Origin: Rhodococcus sp. P1Y
GTDB lineage: Bacteria > Actinomycetota > Actinomycetes > Mycobacteriales > Mycobacteriaceae
Length of the DNA stretch: 64,000 bases
Assembly (NCBI RefSeq): GCF_003641205.1
Contig: NZ_CP032762.1
Span: 3,658,001-3,722,000, forward strand
Direction: 5' to 3'
Part shown: piece after piece, positions 41,176-49,652 of the stretch
Layout: every line of letters starts with the position of its first letter
Numbering within the stretch: the stretch's first letter is position 1
The notes under the pieces: model-generated
The model's input: the letters and a program-made list of their open reading frames with translations, nothing else
What the model was told of the DNA's origin: nothing
Database searches by the model: none
Translations under genes and position numbers: made by a program

Positions 41176-42663
41176 TCAGGGGTATCTACGCGAGGTGTAC
41201 ACCCGGTCGCCACTTCCGGTCCGGACGATCTCGGTCTGCGACGAACCGATGATGAGTAGGCATCGCATGTCGATCTCCTCGGGATCGAGGGCCGCCAGGC
41301 GAACTGTACGGACGGACTCCTCATCACTGCCGACTGCACGCCCGATGACGACCGGTGTATCCGGTCCGCGGTGTTCGAGCACGATGTCGCGCATGGCGGC
41401 CACCTGCCACGTGCGCGACTTCGACGCCGGGTTGTACACGGCGATTGCCATATCCGCTGCTGCGACCGCGGACAGCCGAGTGGCTACCACGTCCCACGGC
41501 TTGAGCCGATCGGACAGGGAGATCACGGCGTAATCGTGGCCGAGAGGAGCTCCCACCCTGCTTGCGACAGCATTGGCAGCCGTCATGCCGGGTACGACAC
41601 GCACCGGAACACCGCACCATTCGGGCTCCGCGGCAACTTCGATCACCGCAGCCGCCATAGCGAAGACTCCGGGGTCGCCGGAGGACACCACTACGACTCG
41701 CTTGCCTCTCTTCGCAAGGTCGAGTGCGAACGCGGCTCGCTCGGATTCGACCTTGTTGTCGCTCGCGTGTCGAATCTGGCCGGGCTGCAGCCTTACTCGA
41801 TCGAGATAGGTCACGTAGCCGACCAGGTCGGTCGCAGAAGCGAGTTCGACGCGGACCTCGTCCGTCGTCCATTCGTCGGCGCCGGGGCCGAGACCCACCA
41901 CGACGACCTCACCGGTGCATGCGTTCGCGGCACGGTTGTTCGATGGGCTCGGTACCACTGCGATCGAGAAATACGGGACAGTCGAGTTCTCGACGTCTGC
42001 GACGTCGAGAACTCGCTGCCGTTCCGTGCTCGCGCGCTCGATGTACTTCGCCTCATCGAGGCGGCCCGAAAGCTTCAGTGCAGCGACCACATTCGGAAAT
42101 GTCCGACCGAGCTTCATGATCGCGGCGGCATCGGTGCCGCGCAGCCGCCTTGCGAGTTCGTCGACGGGCAACGTTCCCGGCAGCACCGTGAAGACTTCGT
42201 CCCGTTCGACGAGCGGGGTCGCAAGCGCCGCCGACGCCGCACTGACCGAGGTCACACCCGGCACGACCTCGACGTCGAAACGATCCACCAGCCGCTTGTG
42301 CATGTGCATGTACGAGCTGTAGAACAGCGGGTCGCCTTCTGCGAGAAGGACTACCGATCGTCCTGCTTGTAGGTGGCCTGCCAGGCGAGTCGCCGACTGT
42401 TCGTAGAATTCGTCGATTGCACCCTGATAGCCGCCGGGATGGTCGGTGCCTTCGGTCGTGACCGGATACACGAGGTGTTCTTCGAGTTGACCGTCGCGCA
42501 TATAGTGCGAGGCGATCGCTCGGGAGATGCTTCGCCCGTGTTGCGCGCTATGGAACGCGACGACGTCGGCCTCGCCGATGACGCGAGCGGCTTTGACTGT
42601 GACGAGTTCCGGATCGCCGGGGCCGATGCCGACACCCCAGAGCTTTCCTGGTGCGATGCTCAT
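41176..42663 (-). CDS. cobIJ: Bifunctional precorrin-2 C20- / precorrin-3B C17-methyltransferase
   Basis: A 495-residue fusion of two SAM-dependent tetrapyrrole methylases. The CobI half has [15 protein letters not shown] at the start and [12 protein letters not shown]. The CobJ half starts near residue 243 with [13 protein letters not shown] and has [13 protein letters not shown]. tuberculosis cobI has the same fusion. ATG 42663 overlaps the cobH stop (ATGA). It is the last gene of the minus-strand cob operon. Confidence 0.95.
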
Positions 42664-43295
42664 TCTTGTTCGCTCGCAATTGCATTGACCGCGGCCGCGG
42701 TGATTGCACTTCCTCCGCGGCGGCCACGGACAACGAGGTACTCGAGGTCGAGACCGGACGCGATCAGATCCTCCTTGGATTCCGCGGCGCCGATGAAGCC
42801 GACGGGTCCGCCGACGATCGCTGCGGGTTTCGGCGCACCCGAGGCGATCAATTCGAGCAGATGGAACAGAGCAGTCGGGGCGTTGCCGATCGCGACGACG
42901 GCGCCACCAAGACGATCGCCCCACAATTCGAGCGCGGCCGCGGTACGCGTCGTACCGAGTTTCTCGGCGAGTGCACGTACCGACGGATCCGACAGCGTGC
43001 AGATCACGTCGTTGTCGGCGGGAAGGCGTGCGCGAGTGACACCCGCTGCGACCATGTTGGCGTCGCACAGAATAGGCGCGCCGTCGCGGAGAGCAGCACG
43101 TGCAGCTCGAACGACGTTGGGGGTGGCCGCGACAACGTCGGTCAGATCGACTTCTCCGCTCGCGTGAATCATCCGCACGACTACCTGTGCAATGTCCGCC
43201 GAGAACGCCGACAGATCCGCCTCTGCCCTGATCGTGGCGAAGGATTGGCGGTAGATCTCCGCACCGTCGCGGATGTAGTCGTGCATGACCATCAC
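42660..43295 (-). CDS. cobH: Precorrin-8X methylmutase
   Basis: A 211-residue enzyme that migrates a methyl group from C11 to C12 to give hydrogenobyrinate. Seen: [15 protein letters not shown] with the conserved acidic region, the catalytic His in [12 protein letters not shown], and [15 protein letters not shown]. Starts at 43295 or 43286 (closely spaced ATGs) are both possible. The stop overlaps cobIJ. Confidence 0.95.
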
Positions 43296-43317: not shown

Positions 43318-44454
43318 TCAGAACACCCGGTAGCCGGTCGGTCCGGCAACGACATCGACTACGTCACCCTTCGGCCTGCCGCAGCGGCGATCGCAGCCGG
43401 CCCAGTGTTGTCTCACTCCACGTTCGATGGTCCCCTCGGCGATCGCGTCGGTGAGGTCGGTCCGCACGTCTGCATGCGACTTGTCGCACCCGGGGGATCC
43501 GATGCAGGCACTGGCATCGATCCAGGGGGAGTTTTCGTCGAAGATCATTCCCATCGGAGCGAGAACTCGGACAACCTCCTCGGCCATGCCTTCCTCGAGG
43601 TCGCATACGACGATGCTGCGCCACGGGGTGATCACGAGAGGTCGGTCGATCGCCGCCACGAACTCTGCGAGCCGAGCATCGAGTGTGCCGAGCGCGAGGG
43701 CACCGCCGAGTGAGACTCGGCCGTCGACCTGTGTGAGCCACCCGATCGGCGGCACGCCCTCGACGGCGACCGGGAGGTGGGCCGCCTCGGAGGGGGAGAG
43801 TCCCATCATCTCGAGGACACGCGCTGGGCCGTCGTCGAGTTCGCTCAACCGCCATTCGCCGGCGCGAAGTCGGACGAATGCCGTCGCCGACTCGAGCAAC
43901 CGATCTACCACCTCGCTTTCGTCCAGCCGAACGCCCGTATCCCCTCCGGCTAGTACCAACGCATAGTTCGAAGGCCCCACGGCCTGGACTCCGAAGTCAG
44001 GACTCGCCACGATGACGTCGCCGCGACCGTCGTCGAGGGCGAACAATGTACGTCCGGGAAGGTCGGCCAATTCAGCGGTGGCTCGCACGGCCTCGTCCAG
44101 TTCTGGCACGAGGTCCCTGACGTCGGAGACTCCACCGACGCGTCCACTGAGCGGTGACGCAAGAATGTTGCGCACTCGCTCATGAGTCGACGACGGAAGC
44201 AGACCCGCGCCGGCGAGGCGTCGGGCAAGCTCGTCGGGGTCGGACACCGACCGAAATTGGATATTTCCGCGGGAGGTCAGCTCCATGGATCCGTTGCCGA
44301 GATCCCTCGCGGCACCGGCCAGCGCATGCATTTGCGCAGGCGTGCAGCGACCACCGGGCAGACGGGTCCTCGCCAACGCGCCGTCCGCAGCCTGATGCGT
44401 CGACAGCGCGCCCGGACACCGGTCGGGTACAGCTCGGGGATCGGTCGAACTCAC
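43318..44454 (-). CDS. cobG: Precorrin-3B synthase (oxygen-dependent)
   Basis: A 378-residue siroheme/[4Fe-4S] sulfite-reductase-like protein. The Cys ligands are in SACIGSPGC and AGCDRRCGRPKGD near the C-terminus, and the N-terminal SRGNIQFR block is typical. It uses O2 to hydroxylate precorrin-3A and thereby marks the pathway as the aerobic one. GTG 44454 is chosen by family length. It lies ten bases after the AlaRS-like gene, in the same transcript. Confidence 0.93.
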   Translation of the reverse strand: MSSTDPRAVPDRCPGALSTHQAADGALARTRLPGGRCTPAQMHALAGAARDLGNGSMELTSRGNIQFRSVSDPDELARRLAGAGLLPSSTHERVRNILASPLSGRVGGVSDVRDLVPELDEAVRATAELADLPGRTLFALDDGRGDVIVASPDFGVQAVGPSNYALVLAGGDTGVRLDESEVVDRLLESATAFVRLRAGEWRLSELDDGPARVLEMMGLSPSEAAHLPVAVEGVPPIGWLTQVDGRVSLGGALALGTLDARLAEFVAAIDRPLVITPWRSIVVCDLEEGMAEEVVRVLAPMGMIFDENSPWIDASACIGSPGCDKSHADVRTDLTDAIAEGTIERGVRQHWAGCDRRCGRPKGDVVDVVAGPTGYRVF

Positions 44455-44464
44455 AGCCCTAAGG

Positions 44465-45862
44465 CTACAAGTGCATCTTGTTCGCAGCGCGCGAGCGTTC
44501 ACGCTGTGCTCGCATCCTGGCGTCGAACTCGGTCCTCCATTGCTCACTGACCGAGATCGAGTTGGCGTGAGCCTCCTCGACACTGAGCTCCACAGGAAAC
44601 CCGTAGGTGTCGTACAGCACGAACAGTTCGTCTCCGGACACAACCTGGTCGGACATTCGGATGAGTTCACGCAGCCCCCGACGTAAGGTCTGCCGAAAGG
44701 CCTTTTCCTCTTTCACCAGTGCCGCAACGACGTCGTCCAACCGTTCCGTCACCTCGGGGTAGGCGTCCGAGTAGAGGTGCGCGATCGTCGGCACGATCTT
44801 CTGCAGGAAGTTCTCTTGCACACCGAGGTCGAACGCAAACCTGATCGCACGACGCACCAAGCGGCGCATCACGTAGCCCTGTTCCTTGTTGCTCGGACGT
44901 ACCCCGTCGACGGCGAGAAATACGGCTCCGCGAAGGTGATCGACCACGACTCTCATCGACCGTGTGTGGGTGTCGTAGGACTTGCCGGTGAGGGTTTGAA
45001 CCTGCTCCACAATCGGCCAGAGCAGACTGCTGCGGAACACGTCGGGACTGTCGATCGCGGCGGCAGCGATCCGTTCGAGGCCGCCGCCGTAGTCGACGTT
45101 TCGACGCGGCAGCGGGCCGAATCCGTCGTCGGTCCGAACGTATTGCATGAATACCGAGTTGCCGAGTTCGATGTATCGCCCGCAATCACAGTTCTGATGA
45201 CACTGCTCGCCGTACGCAGGGTCGTGGGAAATGTCGGGATAGAGGTAGAAGACTTCGGAATCGGGACCACCCGGCTCACCGACAGGCATCGCCTCGGCGG
45301 CGCCCGCCCTGCACCACCAGTTCTTGCCGCCGTAGAACGCGATGCGTGCGCCGCCGTTGCCTACGTGGCCCCCGTGCTCTTCGGTGCCGAGATCGACGCG
45401 AGCGTTGTCGATTCCCGCCCGGGCGAACAGGTCGGCCCAAATGTCAGCGCTCTCGGTGTCCTTGGGTATGTGGTTCGTCTCGTCACCGGAGAAGCAGGAC
45501 ACGTAGATGCGGGAAGGGTCGAGATGGACGACTTCGGTGAGGAATTCCCAGAACCACGGAATTTGCTCGGACTTGAAATAGTCGCCGAGACTCCAGTTAC
45601 CGAGCATCTCGAAGAACGTCGTATGGCGGTTGTCGCCCACTTCCTCGATGTCCTGAACTCGGACGCACGGCTGACTGTCGGTCAGCCGCGTTCCTGCGGG
45701 GTGCTCGGTGCCGAGCAGATAGGGGAGAAGCTGCTGCATCCCACTGCCGTTGAACAGCGTGGTCGGGTCGTCTCGAGGAACGAGGTCGGCTCGATCGATG
45801 AGGTGGTGACCTCGTGCCGCGTAGAACTGCAGATAGGCGCTACGAATGTCCCTGGCATCCAT
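44465..45862 (-). CDS. Free-standing alanyl-tRNA synthetase catalytic core (AlaRS-like)
   Basis: A 465-residue protein matching the N-terminal catalytic and tRNA-recognition domains of AlaRS and ending just where the editing domain would start. Seen: class II hallmarks TTFFEMLGNWSLGDYF (about 81), VFMQY, motif 3 GGGLERIAAA (about 262), MRRLVRRAIRFAFDLGV, and LYDTYGFPVELS before the terminal RERSRAA. The usual GPCGPCSEI loop reads GEPGGPDSEV, and an extra Cys-rich patch CHQNCDC precedes RYIEL. No editing HxxxH site or C-Ala domain. It heads the cobG-cobH-cobIJ operon with its own leaderless promoter. It could be a tRNA-alanylating paralogue, a resistance variant or an amide-forming enzyme; role unknown. 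Confidence 0.9.
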   Translation of the reverse strand: MDARDIRSAYLQFYAARGHHLIDRADLVPRDDPTTLFNGSGMQQLLPYLLGTEHPAGTRLTDSQPCVRVQDIEEVGDNRHTTFFEMLGNWSLGDYFKSEQIPWFWEFLTEVVHLDPSRIYVSCFSGDETNHIPKDTESADIWADLFARAGIDNARVDLGTEEHGGHVGNGGARIAFYGGKNWWCRAGAAEAMPVGEPGGPDSEVFYLYPDISHDPAYGEQCHQNCDCGRYIELGNSVFMQYVRTDDGFGPLPRRNVDYGGGLERIAAAAIDSPDVFRSSLLWPIVEQVQTLTGKSYDTHTRSMRVVVDHLRGAVFLAVDGVRPSNKEQGYVMRRLVRRAIRFAFDLGVQENFLQKIVPTIAHLYSDAYPEVTERLDDVVAALVKEEKAFRQTLRRGLRELIRMSDQVVSGDELFVLYDTYGFPVELSVEEAHANSISVSEQWRTEFDARMRAQRERSRAANKMHL

Positions 45863-45868
45863 TCATCG

Positions 45869-45874
45869 ATGTTA
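45869..45874 (-). promoter_or_regulatory. -10 box of the leaderless AlaRS-like/cob operon promoter
   Basis: Minus-strand TAACAT ends six bases before the ATG at 45862. A leaderless start would leave no room for a riboswitch on this transcript. Confidence 0.45.
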
Positions 45875-45879
45875 CGTGC

Positions 45880-46012
45880 ACCCGGTAGCATTCCGCGGAA
45901 GAAGGCTTCGGCCGAGAGGAAGCCGGTGCAATTCCGGCGCGGTCGCGCCACTGTCACAGCCAGACCCTCTCGGCCACCACGTACGGCTACACACGGGGCG
46001 CGAAATCCCCGT
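45880..46012 (+). ncRNA. Cobalamin riboswitch controlling cobN
   Basis: The conserved core is GAAGCCGGTGCAATTCCGGC (45919-45938) followed by GCGGTCGCGCCACTGT (45939-45954) and the AGCCAGAC segment (45958 onward). A 6-bp hairpin ACGGGG/CCCCGT (45993-45998, 46007-46012) ends directly at the AAGGAGGG ribosome binding site of cobN. This suggests translational control: cobalamin binding hides the site. The core is a good match; the exact ends are estimated. Confidence 0.85.
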
Positions 46013-46028: not shown

Positions 46029-49000
46029 GTGATCCTGCTGCTGTCCACGTCGGACACCGATCTTCTGAGCGCACGTGCCAGCGGCGCGGACTACCGCTGG
46101 GGGAACCCGTCACGCCTACTGGCCGACGACGTACCTGGGCTCGCCGACGGAGCCGACGTGATCGTTCTCCGAATCCTGGGATCCAAGAGGTCCTGGGAAG
46201 CAGGAGTCGATGCCGTTCTGGCCACCGGACTGCCCGTCGTGGTCCTGGGGGGCGAGCAAGCCCCGGACGCAGAGCTCATGGAGTTGTCGACGGTGCCGGG
46301 CAATGTCGCGGCACAGGCCCATAACTATTTGGCCGAGGGTGGGGCCGGCAACCTCGCGCAACTGTTCGCTTTCCTGTCCGACACGCTTCTGCTGACGGGC
46401 CATGGATTTCTCGCACCCGCTCACCTTCCCACCTGGGGAGTCCTCGAACGACAGTCAGACCTCGAACGGCAGTCAGGGGCGCCTGCATCCGGGCCTGTCG
46501 TGGCGATTCTGTACTACCGGGCTCAACATCTTGCGGGAAACACTGCGTACATCGATGCACTTTCCGCGGCTGTGGAGGCCAAAGGCGGTCGCGCCTTGCC
46601 GATCTACTGCGCGTCCCTGCGCACGGCAGAGCGCGGACTCCTCGACACGTTGAAGTCCGCCGACGCATTGATCGTCACAGTGCTTGCGGCAGGGGGCACG
46701 AAGCCCGCAGGCGCATCGGCCGGCGGCGACGACGAGGCGTGGGACGTAGCCGAACTCGCTGCCCTCGACGTGCCAATTCTGCAAGGCCTCTGTCTGACGA
46801 GCAGTCGAGCAACGTGGGATGACAACGACGACGGTCTGTCCCCGCTCGATGTCGCCACGCAGGTTGCCGTACCCGAGTTCGACGGCCGCCTCATCACGGT
46901 GCCGTTCTCGTTCAAGGAAATCGACGGCGACGGGTTGACGACCTACGTCCCGGACCACGAGCGCGCGGCGCGGGTCGCTGGAATTGCGCTGCGTCACGCC
47001 AAGCTTCGGCACATCCCGGCGTCGGAACGCCGCATCGCTCTGATGTTCTCGGCGTACCCGACCAAGCATGCCCGGATCGGCAATGCGGTCGGGCTGGACA
47101 CACCTGCCAGCGCTATCGCCCTGATGTCCGAAATGCGCCGCGCTGGTTACGATCTCGGACCGTTGGACGGCCCCGAAGCGATTCCAGGTCTCGCCGCCCG
47201 CGACGGTGATGCCCTGATCCATGCCTTGATCGCACGCGGCGGGCAGGACCCCGACTGGCTCACGGCGGAGCAACTCGAAGGCAATCCGCTGCGCATATCG
47301 GCCGCACGGTACAAGTCGTGGTTCTCCCAGTTGCCCGAGGAGCTCACCTCAGCGGTCGAAGAGCACTGGGGACCAGCGCCCGGCGATCTCTACGTCGATC
47401 GGTCGGCCGCCCCGGAGGGGGAGATAGTCATTGCCGCAATGCAATTCGGCAACGTCGTCATCATGGTTCAACCGCCGCGCGGCTTCGGTGAAAAGCCGGT
47501 CGCGATCTACCATGATCCGGACCTGCCACCGAGCCATCACTACCTCGCTGCGTACCGATGGATTCAGGCACCGGTCGCAGACGGCGGCTTCGGCGCCGAT
47601 GCGATGGTGCACCTCGGTAAACACGGCAATCTGGAGTGGTTGCCGGGCAAGACGCTCGGCATGTCGGCATCGTGCGGTACCGATGCTGCACTGGGGGATC
47701 TGCCGCTGATCTATCCGTTCCTGGTGAACGACCCGGGTGAAGGTACGCAGGCCAAGCGTCGCGCTCACGCAACGCTCGTGGATCACCTGATTCCGCCGAT
47801 GGCCCGCGCCGAGAGTTACGGCGACATCTCGCGGCTCGAGCAGCTCCTCGACGAACACGCCAACATCTCGGCTCTCGACCCGGCGAAGCTTCCGGCGATA
47901 CGACAGCAGATCTGGACGTTGATGACCGCGGCGCAAATGCATCACGACCTCGGTCTGGAGGAACGCCCTGACGAGGAAGTGTTCGACGACATGCTTCTGA
48001 ACGTCGACGGGTGGCTGTGCGAGATCAAGGACGTTCAGATCCGAGACGGCCTGCACATTCTCGGCTCGGAACCAGTCGGCGATGCCGAGGTCGAACTGGT
48101 ACTGGCCATGCTGCGTGCCCGACAGATGTGGGGTGGAGAGCAGACCGTTCCAGGACTGCGTGAGGCGCTCGGACTCAGCGAGGACGGCGACGAGGAACGC
48201 GTGCGAGTCGACGCGATCGAGGCCGTCGCGCACGGACTGGTCGCTGCGATGCAACACACACAGTGGGACCCGGCCGAGGCAGATCGAGTCGCAGGCGAAC
48301 ACGGATCGACCGTCGCGGATATTCTGCGATTTGCCGCCGTCGAGGTGGTTCCGCGTTTGCGAGGGACGTCCCGCGAGATCGATCAGGTTCTGCACGCACT
48401 CGACGGTGGGTTCATCGCAGCGGGACCGAGCGGGTCGCCGCTTCGCGGCCTCATCAACGTGCTCCCGACCGGTCGGAACTTCTACTCGGTAGACCCGAAG
48501 GCCGTTCCGTCGAAGTTGGCGTGGGAGACCGGACAGGCAATGGCGGAATCGCTTCTGGACCGCTACCGCAAGGATCATGGCGAGTGGCCGAAGTCGGTCG
48601 GCCTCTCGGTCTGGGGAACGTCGGCGATGCGAACGTCGGGTGACGACGTGGCCGAGGTATTTGCGCTGCTGGGAGTCTCTCCCGTGTGGGACGAGGCCTC
48701 ACGACGCGTCACGAAGCTCGCCGTCATCGATCTCGACGAACTTGGCAGGCCGCGTATCGACGTGACCGTGCGCATCAGCGGCTTCTTCCGCGATGCCTTC
48801 CCGCACGTGCTTGCACTGCTTGACGACGCGGTCCGCCTCGTCGCCGCGCTGGACGAGCCCGAGGACTTGAACTTCGTCCGTGCGCACGCTCAGGCGGACC
48901 TGGCCGAGCACGGTGACGAGCGACGCTCCACCACGCGAATCTTCGGGTCGAAGCCCGGCACATACGGCGCCGGCTTGCTGCAATTGATCGACAGCAAGAC

Positions 49001-49652
49001 CTGGCGCAGCGACGAGGACCTCGCGCAGGTGTACACGACATGGGGAGGCTTCGCGTACGGGCGGGGACTCGACGGAATTCCGGCTTCGGACGACATGCGC
49101 ACCGCGTACAAACGAATTGCCGTCGCAGCCAAGAACACCGACACCCGCGAGCACGACATCGCAGACTCCGACGACTACTTTCAGTACCACGGAGGCATGG
49201 TCGCCACCGTTCGTGCCCTCACCGGCAAGTCACCCGAGGCGTACATCGGCGACAGCACACGGCCTGAATCGGTTCGCACTCGTACGCTGTCCGAGGAGAC
49301 AGCCAGGGTGTTCCGTGCCCGCGTCGTGAATCCTCGGTGGCTGGAGGCAATGCGGCGGCACGGCTACAAGGGCGCATTCGAGATGGCAGCCACCGTCGAC
49401 TATCTCTTCGGTTACGACGCCACGACCGATGTGGTCGCGGACTGGATGTACGAAAAATTGGCCGAGACATACGTTCTCGACGAACAGAATCAGAAGTTCA
49501 TGCAGAAGTCCAACCCGTGGGCGCTGCACGGCATCGCCGAACGACTGCTGGAGGCGGCCGAGCGAAAGATGTGGGCCGAGCCCGACGCGCAGATTCTCGA
49601 TGGGCTTCGTCAGGTCTACCTCGAAACCGAGGGAGACTTGGAAGGGGAGTAG
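46029..49652 (+). CDS. cobN: Aerobic cobaltochelatase subunit CobN
   Basis: A 1207-residue large subunit that inserts cobalt into hydrogenobyrinic acid a,c-diamide with CobS and CobT. Seen: ILLLSTSDTDLLSARASG at the start, VLYYRAQHLAGNTAY-like block (AILYYRAQHLAG), FSAYPTKHARIGNAVGLDTP, HLGKHGNLEWLPGK, and IFGSKPGTYGAGLLQLID. GTG 46029 follows AAGGAGGG nine bases upstream. No cobS/cobT are in the window. Expression is under the cobalamin riboswitch. Confidence 0.97.
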   Translation: MILLLSTSDTDLLSARASGADYRWGNPSRLLADDVPGLADGADVIVLRILGSKRSWEAGVDAVLATGLPVVVLGGEQAPDAELMELSTVPGNVAAQAHNYLAEGGAGNLAQLFAFLSDTLLLTGHGFLAPAHLPTWGVLERQSDLERQSGAPASGPVVAILYYRAQHLAGNTAYIDALSAAVEAKGGRALPIYCASLRTAERGLLDTLKSADALIVTVLAAGGTKPAGASAGGDDEAWDVAELAALDVPILQGLCLTSSRATWDDNDDGLSPLDVATQVAVPEFDGRLITVPFSFKEIDGDGLTTYVPDHERAARVAGIALRHAKLRHIPASERRIALMFSAYPTKHARIGNAVGLDTPASAIALMSEMRRAGYDLGPLDGPEAIPGLAARDGDALIHALIARGGQDPDWLTAEQLEGNPLRISAARYKSWFSQLPEELTSAVEEHWGPAPGDLYVDRSAAPEGEIVIAAMQFGNVVIMVQPPRGFGEKPVAIYHDPDLPPSHHYLAAYRWIQAPVADGGFGADAMVHLGKHGNLEWLPGKTLGMSASCGTDAALGDLPLIYPFLVNDPGEGTQAKRRAHATLVDHLIPPMARAESYGDISRLEQLLDEHANISALDPAKLPAIRQQIWTLMTAAQMHHDLGLEERPDEEVFDDMLLNVDGWLCEIKDVQIRDGLHILGSEPVGDAEVELVLAMLRARQMWGGEQTVPGLREALGLSEDGDEERVRVDAIEAVAHGLVAAMQHTQWDPAEADRVAGEHGSTVADILRFAAVEVVPRLRGTSREIDQVLHALDGGFIAAGPSGSPLRGLINVLPTGRNFYSVDPKAVPSKLAWETGQAMAESLLDRYRKDHGEWPKSVGLSVWGTSAMRTSGDDVAEVFALLGVSPVWDEASRRVTKLAVIDLDELGRPRIDVTVRISGFFRDAFPHVLALLDDAVRLVAALDEPEDLNFVRAHAQADLAEHGDERRSTTRIFGSKPGTYGAGLLQLIDSKTWRSDEDLAQVYTTWGGFAYGRGLDGIPASDDMRTAYKRIAVAAKNTDTREHDIADSDDYFQYHGGMVATVRALTGKSPEAYIGDSTRPESVRTRTLSEETARVFRARVVNPRWLEAMRRHGYKGAFEMAATVDYLFGYDATTDVVADWMYEKLAETYVLDEQNQKFMQKSNPWALHGIAERLLEAAERKMWAEPDAQILDGLRQVYLETEGDLEGE

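Follow-up and report, generated by a model that had tools for sequence, protein, structure and literature searches.

A free-standing alanyl-tRNA synthetase of Saccharibacteria-like ancestry in Actinobacteria and its probable part in lipid aminoacylation

The locus and its product

The window analysed here, a stretch of 64,000 nucleotides from the single-contig, 5.87-Mb genome of Rhodococcus sp. P1Y, holds a group of cobalamin genes in which a truncated alanyl-tRNA synthetase (AlaRS), hereafter mini-AlaRS, stands between cobG and the divergent cobN:

41176..42663, minus strand: cobIJ (NCBIfam)
42660..43295, minus strand: cobH (NCBIfam)
43318..44454, minus strand: cobG (NCBIfam), with its GTG start at 44454, 10 nt downstream of mini-AlaRS
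44465..45862, minus strand: mini-AlaRS gene, 465 aa, from the ATG at 45862-45860 to a TAG ending at 44465; aminoacylation and tRNA-recognition part only
45869..45874, minus strand: TANCAT box (here TAACAT), possible -10 element of a leaderless mini-AlaRS promoter, located 6 nt ahead of the ATG and conserved in all 7 carriers within the genus
45886..45891, plus strand: TAGCAT box, possible -10 element of cobN, conserved in carriers and non-carriers (single rows read TAACAT or TAGAGT)
45901..45978, plus strand: AdoCbl-type riboswitch of cobN (32.0 bits, E 1.1e-5; gathering score 36.5)
46029..49652, plus strand: cobN (NCBIfam), divergent neighbour of mini-AlaRS, starting at a GTG conserved in the alignment

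A preliminary description of this stretch had placed the gene ten bases before cobG, as the coordinates bear out, and had it read from its own leaderless promoter, with which the conserved TANCAT box fits, though it does not amount to proof. A search of the window at Rfam gathering thresholds found no RNA family; AdoCbl-type riboswitches nonetheless recur on the cobN strand in all eight relatives scanned (three carriers and five non-carriers), all of them, like that of the window, under the gathering score, so that threshold-based annotation would miss the entire set. Because the aptamer shares the strand of cobN in the window just as in each of these relatives, riboswitch control of mini-AlaRS was rejected.

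A Pfam search of the protein gave PF01411 as the sole match, covering residues 5-462 and profile positions 1-433 of 552, with no editing domain; a match that ends at this position and is followed by nothing else means that the protein stops before that domain, in line with the earlier account of a free-standing AlaRS core ending at the catalytic/editing boundary. With PF01411 alone and with scores under the NCBIfam cut-offs (371.6 vs. 457.05 bits for TIGR00344 and 391.3 vs. 529 bits for NF002436), it does not class as a full-length bacterial AlaRS; the PDB chains most similar to it belong to AlaRS and are 435-465 residues long. The equivalents of E. coli R70, R86, W171, N213, D236 and G238, which we take to be class II motif and alanine-site residues, are identical in the query and in all 39 mini-AlaRS examined, the alanine-site Asn and Asp being N235 and D257 in the query and likewise kept in 39 of 39. 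N303 and D400, presumably the readers of the G3:U70 base pair, correspond to N325 and D418 and are retained in 35/39 and 37/39 mini-AlaRS, respectively. By its residues the protein would thus appear equipped for AlaRS catalysis, both in the class II motif and alanine site and in the Asn and Asp predicted to read G3:U70. Across 21 pairs of carriers from its own genus, mini-AlaRS has a median dN/dS of 0.087 (cobG 0.137, cobH 0.053), from which we conclude that it is kept by purifying selection. When searched with the PADLOC models of anti-phage defence, it matched 0 families.

Saccharibacteria-like ancestry

The preliminary description had hinged on the presence of a second, full-length alaS in the genome, and there is one: the only other PF01411 gene is the housekeeping alaS (open frame of 892 aa, 889 aa as called), which scores 825.5 bits to TIGR00344. 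Mini-AlaRS shares 34% identity with this alaS vs. 59-69% with the AlaRS of Saccharibacteria among the matches listed. Saccharibacteria, ultrasmall in size, live as epibionts of Actinobacteria. In the protein search, the 8000 candidates with the most common words were scored and the best 120 taken as the matches listed. These comprise proteins of about 460-490 aa, the named ones from Actinobacteria (Rhodococcus, Nakamurella, Terrabacter, Agromyces, Microbacterium and Humibacillus), and longer ones of about 625-660 aa that include an editing domain, several of them from named Saccharibacteria; the same two classes appear among the best 80 of 574 loci in genome contigs. One record, labelled Kitasatospora arboriphila (L013), has a mini-AlaRS that matches the Williamsia muralis protein at 100% identity, with near-identical flanks, and is probably mislabelled or contaminated.

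Two traits that had been singled out as deviations, the substrate loop GEPGGPDSEV and the patch CHQNCDC (residues 221-227), are both present in the protein and absent from the genome's own alaS, but they are traits of its lineage. In a selection of 39 mini-AlaRS and 41 Saccharibacteria AlaRS from the loci gathered, both sets retain the catalytic residues examined, and the loop pattern occurs in 38/39 and 39/41, and the C..NCDC patch in 16/39 and 34/41 (and in 0/12 of group B, defined below); since both are common in Saccharibacteria AlaRS, they mark ancestry. The patch is possibly a metal site.

Two trees were calculated, a first of 80 rows and a more careful one of 78, each with only two distant outgroup rows; the shorter sequences L009 and L076 were left out of both, and the long-branched L118 and L221 also out of the careful one. 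In either tree all mini-AlaRS fall with Saccharibacteria and away from the window genome's alaS and that of E. coli, and this placement, together with the identities given above, leads us to reject the possibility that mini-AlaRS is a copy of the host alaS. Twelve sequences in the first tree, and 11 in the careful one, from a family group that appears to be Microbacteriaceae (f39) lie inside Saccharibacteria as group B, joined to five Saccharibacteria by a branch with 100/99 support in the careful tree. The remaining mini-AlaRS, including that of the window, make up group A, which adjoins the Saccharibacteria clade. A single origin of all mini-AlaRS is rejected, groups A and B as one clade giving an AU p of 0.000125 with group composition taken from the first tree, while group A alone as one clade is not rejected (p 0.58). 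The best reading of group B is that its gene came from Saccharibacteria and was then truncated; in the case of group A the donor was likely of the Saccharibacteria lineage, the direction of transfer not being fixed by two distant outgroup rows. As an observation in its own right, the f39 carriers L203-L221 nest deep among the Saccharibacteria L051, L058, L059, L060 and L070, a well-supported case of inter-phylum gene transfer. The part of PMC8406219 drawn on here has Saccharibacteria grown with two Gordonia species and Microbacterium as a suspected host; it also reports that evidence for lateral transfer between experimentally profiled Saccharibacteria-host pairs is lacking, which counts against easy transfer.

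Genomic company: cobalamin genes and lipid synthases

Within the window's own genus, 7 of 37 genomes carry mini-AlaRS, and cobG adjoins it in 7/7. The same seven genomes give the top seven cobG matches, their mini-AlaRS group together as a single clade of the AlaRS tree (100/99), and in all 23 cobG loci fetched from the 30 non-carriers cobN and cobG are directly divergent; taken together, this looks like a single insertion, in one clade, into an existing divergent region. Outside the genus, cobG, cobH, cobIJ, cobN, cobK and cobL were found near mini-AlaRS in 0/40 of the carrier loci fetched. Adjacency to cob genes is therefore not constant: it is absent from the other Rhodococcus group (g23) and complete among carriers of the window's genus, and the special link to cobalamin suggested earlier finds no support. 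Judged by linkage across lineages, mini-AlaRS would not count as a component of the cobalamin pathway.

The 40 loci outside the genus comprise 15 of the 21 carriers that the window's family has beyond this genus (the six left out all belong to g10), six from a class-wide survey (8/394 genomes matched) and 19 new ones from a survey of f39 (21/299), the survey genomes being samples. The stretches span about 17.5 kb, three of them under 10 kb at contig ends, with genes called by a GC-frame script that missed the mini-AlaRS of L240, which was found by tblastn. We assigned g8 to Gordonia, g10 to Williamsia and g93 to Agromyces. When the neighbouring genes were clustered, only two clusters spread across many genera: an MprF-type aminoacyl-lipid synthase (23/40 loci, 8/14 genera) and an esterase (13/40). 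All five synthase-cluster members sent to Pfam contain PF09924 and a sixth matches LysX, which is also the identity of the two g23 members; in L119 mini-AlaRS lies 78 bp before LysX. PF00756 was found in 4/4 esterases sent to Pfam, and L134 has the esterase alone. The synthase lies 12-600 bp from mini-AlaRS in 19/40 loci, in convergent, divergent or same-strand orientation. A rough model puts the chance rate of linkage at 1.3-2.5% for each locus. By genus it is linked in g23 (3/4), g10 (2/2), g8 (9/9), g99 (1/2; in L132, at 5.4 kb), g147 (1/1), g238 (2/2), g211 (4/4) and g166 (1/1), and in none of the loci of g93 (0/2), g98 (0/1), g173 (0/6), g188 (0/1), g234 (0/2) and g169 (0/3). The 17 fetched stretches without a synthase thus come from g93 (2), g173 (6), g188 (1), g234 (2), g169 (3), f40 (1), g99 (1 of 2) and g23 (1 of 4); the unlinked g23 locus is L121, which, like L238, is cut by a contig end, and the assembly behind one linked g23 locus (L131) shows 7% contamination. 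Other constant partners were rejected as not widespread; the ten neighbours sent to Pfam included a dCTP deaminase in g173, an RraA-like protein in g234, PNPOx-like and luciferase-like proteins in g169, and FdhD in g8. A further cluster (c3), which looks like ABC-type transporter ATPases, occurs in 11/40 loci, such genes being common. In L240:7938-12132, a 925-aa lipid synthase lies directly behind mini-AlaRS and on its strand; the N-terminal region of this synthase resembles, by eye, a DedA-type membrane domain.

In a synthase tree of 45 rows calculated by a quick method, all 21 linked synthases other than LysX fall into one clade (SH-aLRT 100), which also holds three unlinked proteins (G511, G590 and G1021). 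Carrier genomes supplied 19 of the 20 unlinked rows, so the tree says nothing on non-carriers. Two separately truncated mini-AlaRS lineages, A and the Saccharibacteria-nested B, would therefore appear to pair with a single synthase clade.

Co-occurrence in f39 points the same way, with p values that are overstated because genomes within a genus are not independent: PF09924 is present in 136/299 genomes (135 above cut-off), in 21/21 carriers vs. 115/278 non-carriers (Fisher p 2.6e-8), and the linked type, for which we chose a cut of 360 bits (39 genomes above it; next best 332 bits), in 14/21 carriers vs. 25/278 others (p 2.5e-9). In g211, g238 and g166 possession of the linked type coincides exactly with that of mini-AlaRS (4, 2 and 1 genomes), at least one, three and four listed non-carriers, respectively, being without it. 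Seven f39 carriers (g173 and g188) have PF09924 genes but none of the linked type, and the 25 genomes with the linked-type synthase alone indicate that it does not require mini-AlaRS. In the window's genus at least two PF09924 genes occur in 37/37 genomes and mini-AlaRS in only seven.

The window's own genome has two PF09924 genes, LysX and one next to a PF00756 esterase gene:

L171:7941-11878, same strand as the esterase gene: 871-aa synthase with an extra N-terminal membrane region, overlapping the gene of the 441-aa PF00756 esterase, about 92 kb from mini-AlaRS

This synthase falls in the sister clade of the linked type, where it is accompanied by two synthases of the same genus, from a second carrier and from a non-carrier, respectively. 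With the esterase it makes a putative AlaDAGS/PesT-like pair, and despite the distance it is likely the partner of mini-AlaRS in this genome.

Proposed role and known systems

In light of these results, we propose that mini-AlaRS is probably an active, editing-free AlaRS of Saccharibacteria-like ancestry that supplies Ala-tRNA(Ala) to MprF/DUF2156-type (PF09924) lipid aminoacylation. The proposal draws on retained catalytic and tRNA-identity residues, the missing editing domain, purifying selection, synthase pairing in 8 of 14 other genera and co-occurrence; enzymatic activity, use of the product by the synthase and the role in the window's organism are extrapolated from these. Mini-AlaRS would activate alanine with ATP and charge G3:U70-bearing tRNA(Ala) at the acceptor stem; its product, with neither a C-Ala nor an editing domain present, would be yielded to a membrane-bound transferase that moves the alanine onto phosphatidylglycerol or diacylglycerol, and the membrane esterase encoded nearby in some of the genomes may work on these lipids too. 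Of the links that the preliminary description had entertained, tRNA-dependent chemistry outside translation is thereby supported as the likely role, and by genomic association (the 23 linked loci) mini-AlaRS would take its place among synthetases of lipid aminoacylation with a LysX-like role, the synthase not being adjacent in the window's own genome. In that species the role rests on descent and the presence of a synthase rather than on linkage, making it less sure than in Gordonia or Williamsia, and we read the seat at the head of cobG-cobH-cobIJ as one relocation and not as a B12 function. Speaking against the proposal, LysX is the synthase neighbour in the sister lineage g23, and LysX comes with a LysRS of its own and, in the portion of PMC10580965 used here, uses lysine. 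The 17 loci with no synthase nearby, the f39 genomes with the linked type but no mini-AlaRS and the 30 non-carriers of the window's genus with their PF09924 genes also count against it.

The retention of all examined catalytic residues would equally suit a spare or inhibitor-insensitive AlaRS, be it a backup for translation or a source of resistance to an AlaRS-hitting compound, and so would the remoteness from the host enzyme (34% identity) and a patchy distribution of the kind left by transfer; a Tupanvirus mini-AlaRS can replace yeast AlaRS (PMC10036535, in excerpt). Loss of the editing domain would be odd for a translation enzyme, however, the pairing with lipid synthases would go unexplained, no AlaRS inhibitor cluster came to notice beside the gene and none of the results favours the resistance paralogue of the preliminary description, so that we hold this reading to be rather unlikely. 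A B12 role gained in the window's own clade, as maker of Ala-tRNA or as sensor of alanine or tRNA charging for cobG-cobH-cobIJ, is unlikely: the gene's persistence before cobG in all seven genus carriers, under purifying selection at a median dS of about 1.2, would be explained by a true B12-coupled use too, and the 10-nt spacing suggests co-transcription, but the arrangement goes back to one insertion in one clade, the 23 fetched non-carriers have the same cob genes without mini-AlaRS, cob genes are absent from the 40 loci elsewhere and the cobalamin riboswitch sits on the cobN strand. To our knowledge B12 synthesis has no alanyl-tRNA step, and nothing here shows one; a false lead is thus removed.

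It is very unlikely that synthetase and synthase merely share islands as a by-product of transfer, without working together. The 17 unlinked loci, the 25 f39 genomes with the linked-type synthase alone and the patchiness of both genes would fit such hitchhiking, but not the pairing of two AlaRS lineages with one synthase subfamily, nor the three orientations and the 12-600 bp spacing in 19/40 loci. Least likely of the readings considered is an AcmF-like transferase that would pass alanine from Ala-tRNA straight onto a small molecule or lipid and charge no tRNA itself. AcmF, from an actinobacterium, is likewise AlaRS-like, truncated and built of the same domains, but as described in PMC12945691, and compared here by that description only, it lacks most ATP-site residues, and its active site has Q in place of N and E in place of D, where the equivalents of N235 and D257 are kept in 39 of 39 mini-AlaRS; mini-AlaRS would therefore not be of the AcmF type.

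Should lipid alanylation indeed be its role, many actinobacterial genes annotated as 'alanine--tRNA ligase-related protein' gain a testable function, and gene movement between Saccharibacteria and Actinobacteria comes into view. An enzyme free of editing might also load Ser or Gly, so that unexpected aminoacyl-lipids could be tested for. More speculatively, and with distinctly less confidence, Actinobacteria may at least twice have taken up a Saccharibacteria AlaRS, cut at the same catalytic/editing boundary, as a feeder of membrane-lipid alanylation, conceivably altering the surface to which the epibionts attach.

Among known enzymes, the Saccharibacteria AlaRS (about 625-635 aa, PF01411 and PF07973) is the nearest by sequence, with 59-69% identity among the matches listed and the same loop and Cys patch, but it keeps its editing domain and is presumably the sole AlaRS of its cell. 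The Tupanvirus mini-AlaRS, as excerpted from PMC10036535, also does without editing and C-Ala domains and proves an AlaRS so reduced to be capable of charging tRNA(Ala), although it belongs to a eukaryote-type lineage and lacks the Asn and Asp identity residues kept in the actinobacterial proteins. AcmF, which functions in ascamycin biosynthesis, resembles mini-AlaRS in acting outside translation, but is described in the same part of PMC12945691 as using Ala-tRNA made by AcmD. Amino acid:carrier-protein ligases and the fungal ErdS, an AspRS joined to a lipid transferase, are likewise synthetase-derived proteins outside translation, but they involve other synthetases or a fusion, and the table of the review PMC9437257 gives only the amino acid:carrier-protein ligases as AlaRS paralogues. 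In Corynebacterium glutamicum, AlaDAGS with PesT (Smith et al. 2015, cited in PMC10580965) is an MprF homologue making alanylated lipids, a system echoed by the synthase-esterase neighbours of the window's genome if orthology is granted; the cited section, however, mentions no dedicated AlaRS. The literature search, with most subscription papers outside its reach, found no report that pairs an AlaRS paralogue with a lipid synthase. According to PMC10580965, two MprF paralogues are present in many actinobacteria of the Corynebacterium-Mycobacterium-Nocardia group, of which one resembles AlaDAGS and the other LysX. An excerpt of PMC2922099 sets out the principle that a synthetase paralogue may serve an MprF-like ligase exclusively, the example for lipids being the LysRS fusion. 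LysX, an MprF-type synthase fused to LysRS (PMC10580965 and PMC2922099, both in part), is the closest parallel in function, being in Actinobacteria a synthetase dedicated to tRNA-dependent lipid aminoacylation; mini-AlaRS differs in being an AlaRS, free-standing and truncated, in its Saccharibacteria-like ancestry and in its predicted use of alanine. It is best explained, by this analogy, as the free-standing alanine counterpart of LysX's LysRS part, and if that is correct, alanine would join lysine (in LysX) and aspartate (in fungal ErdS) among the amino acids with a lipid-modification synthetase of their own.
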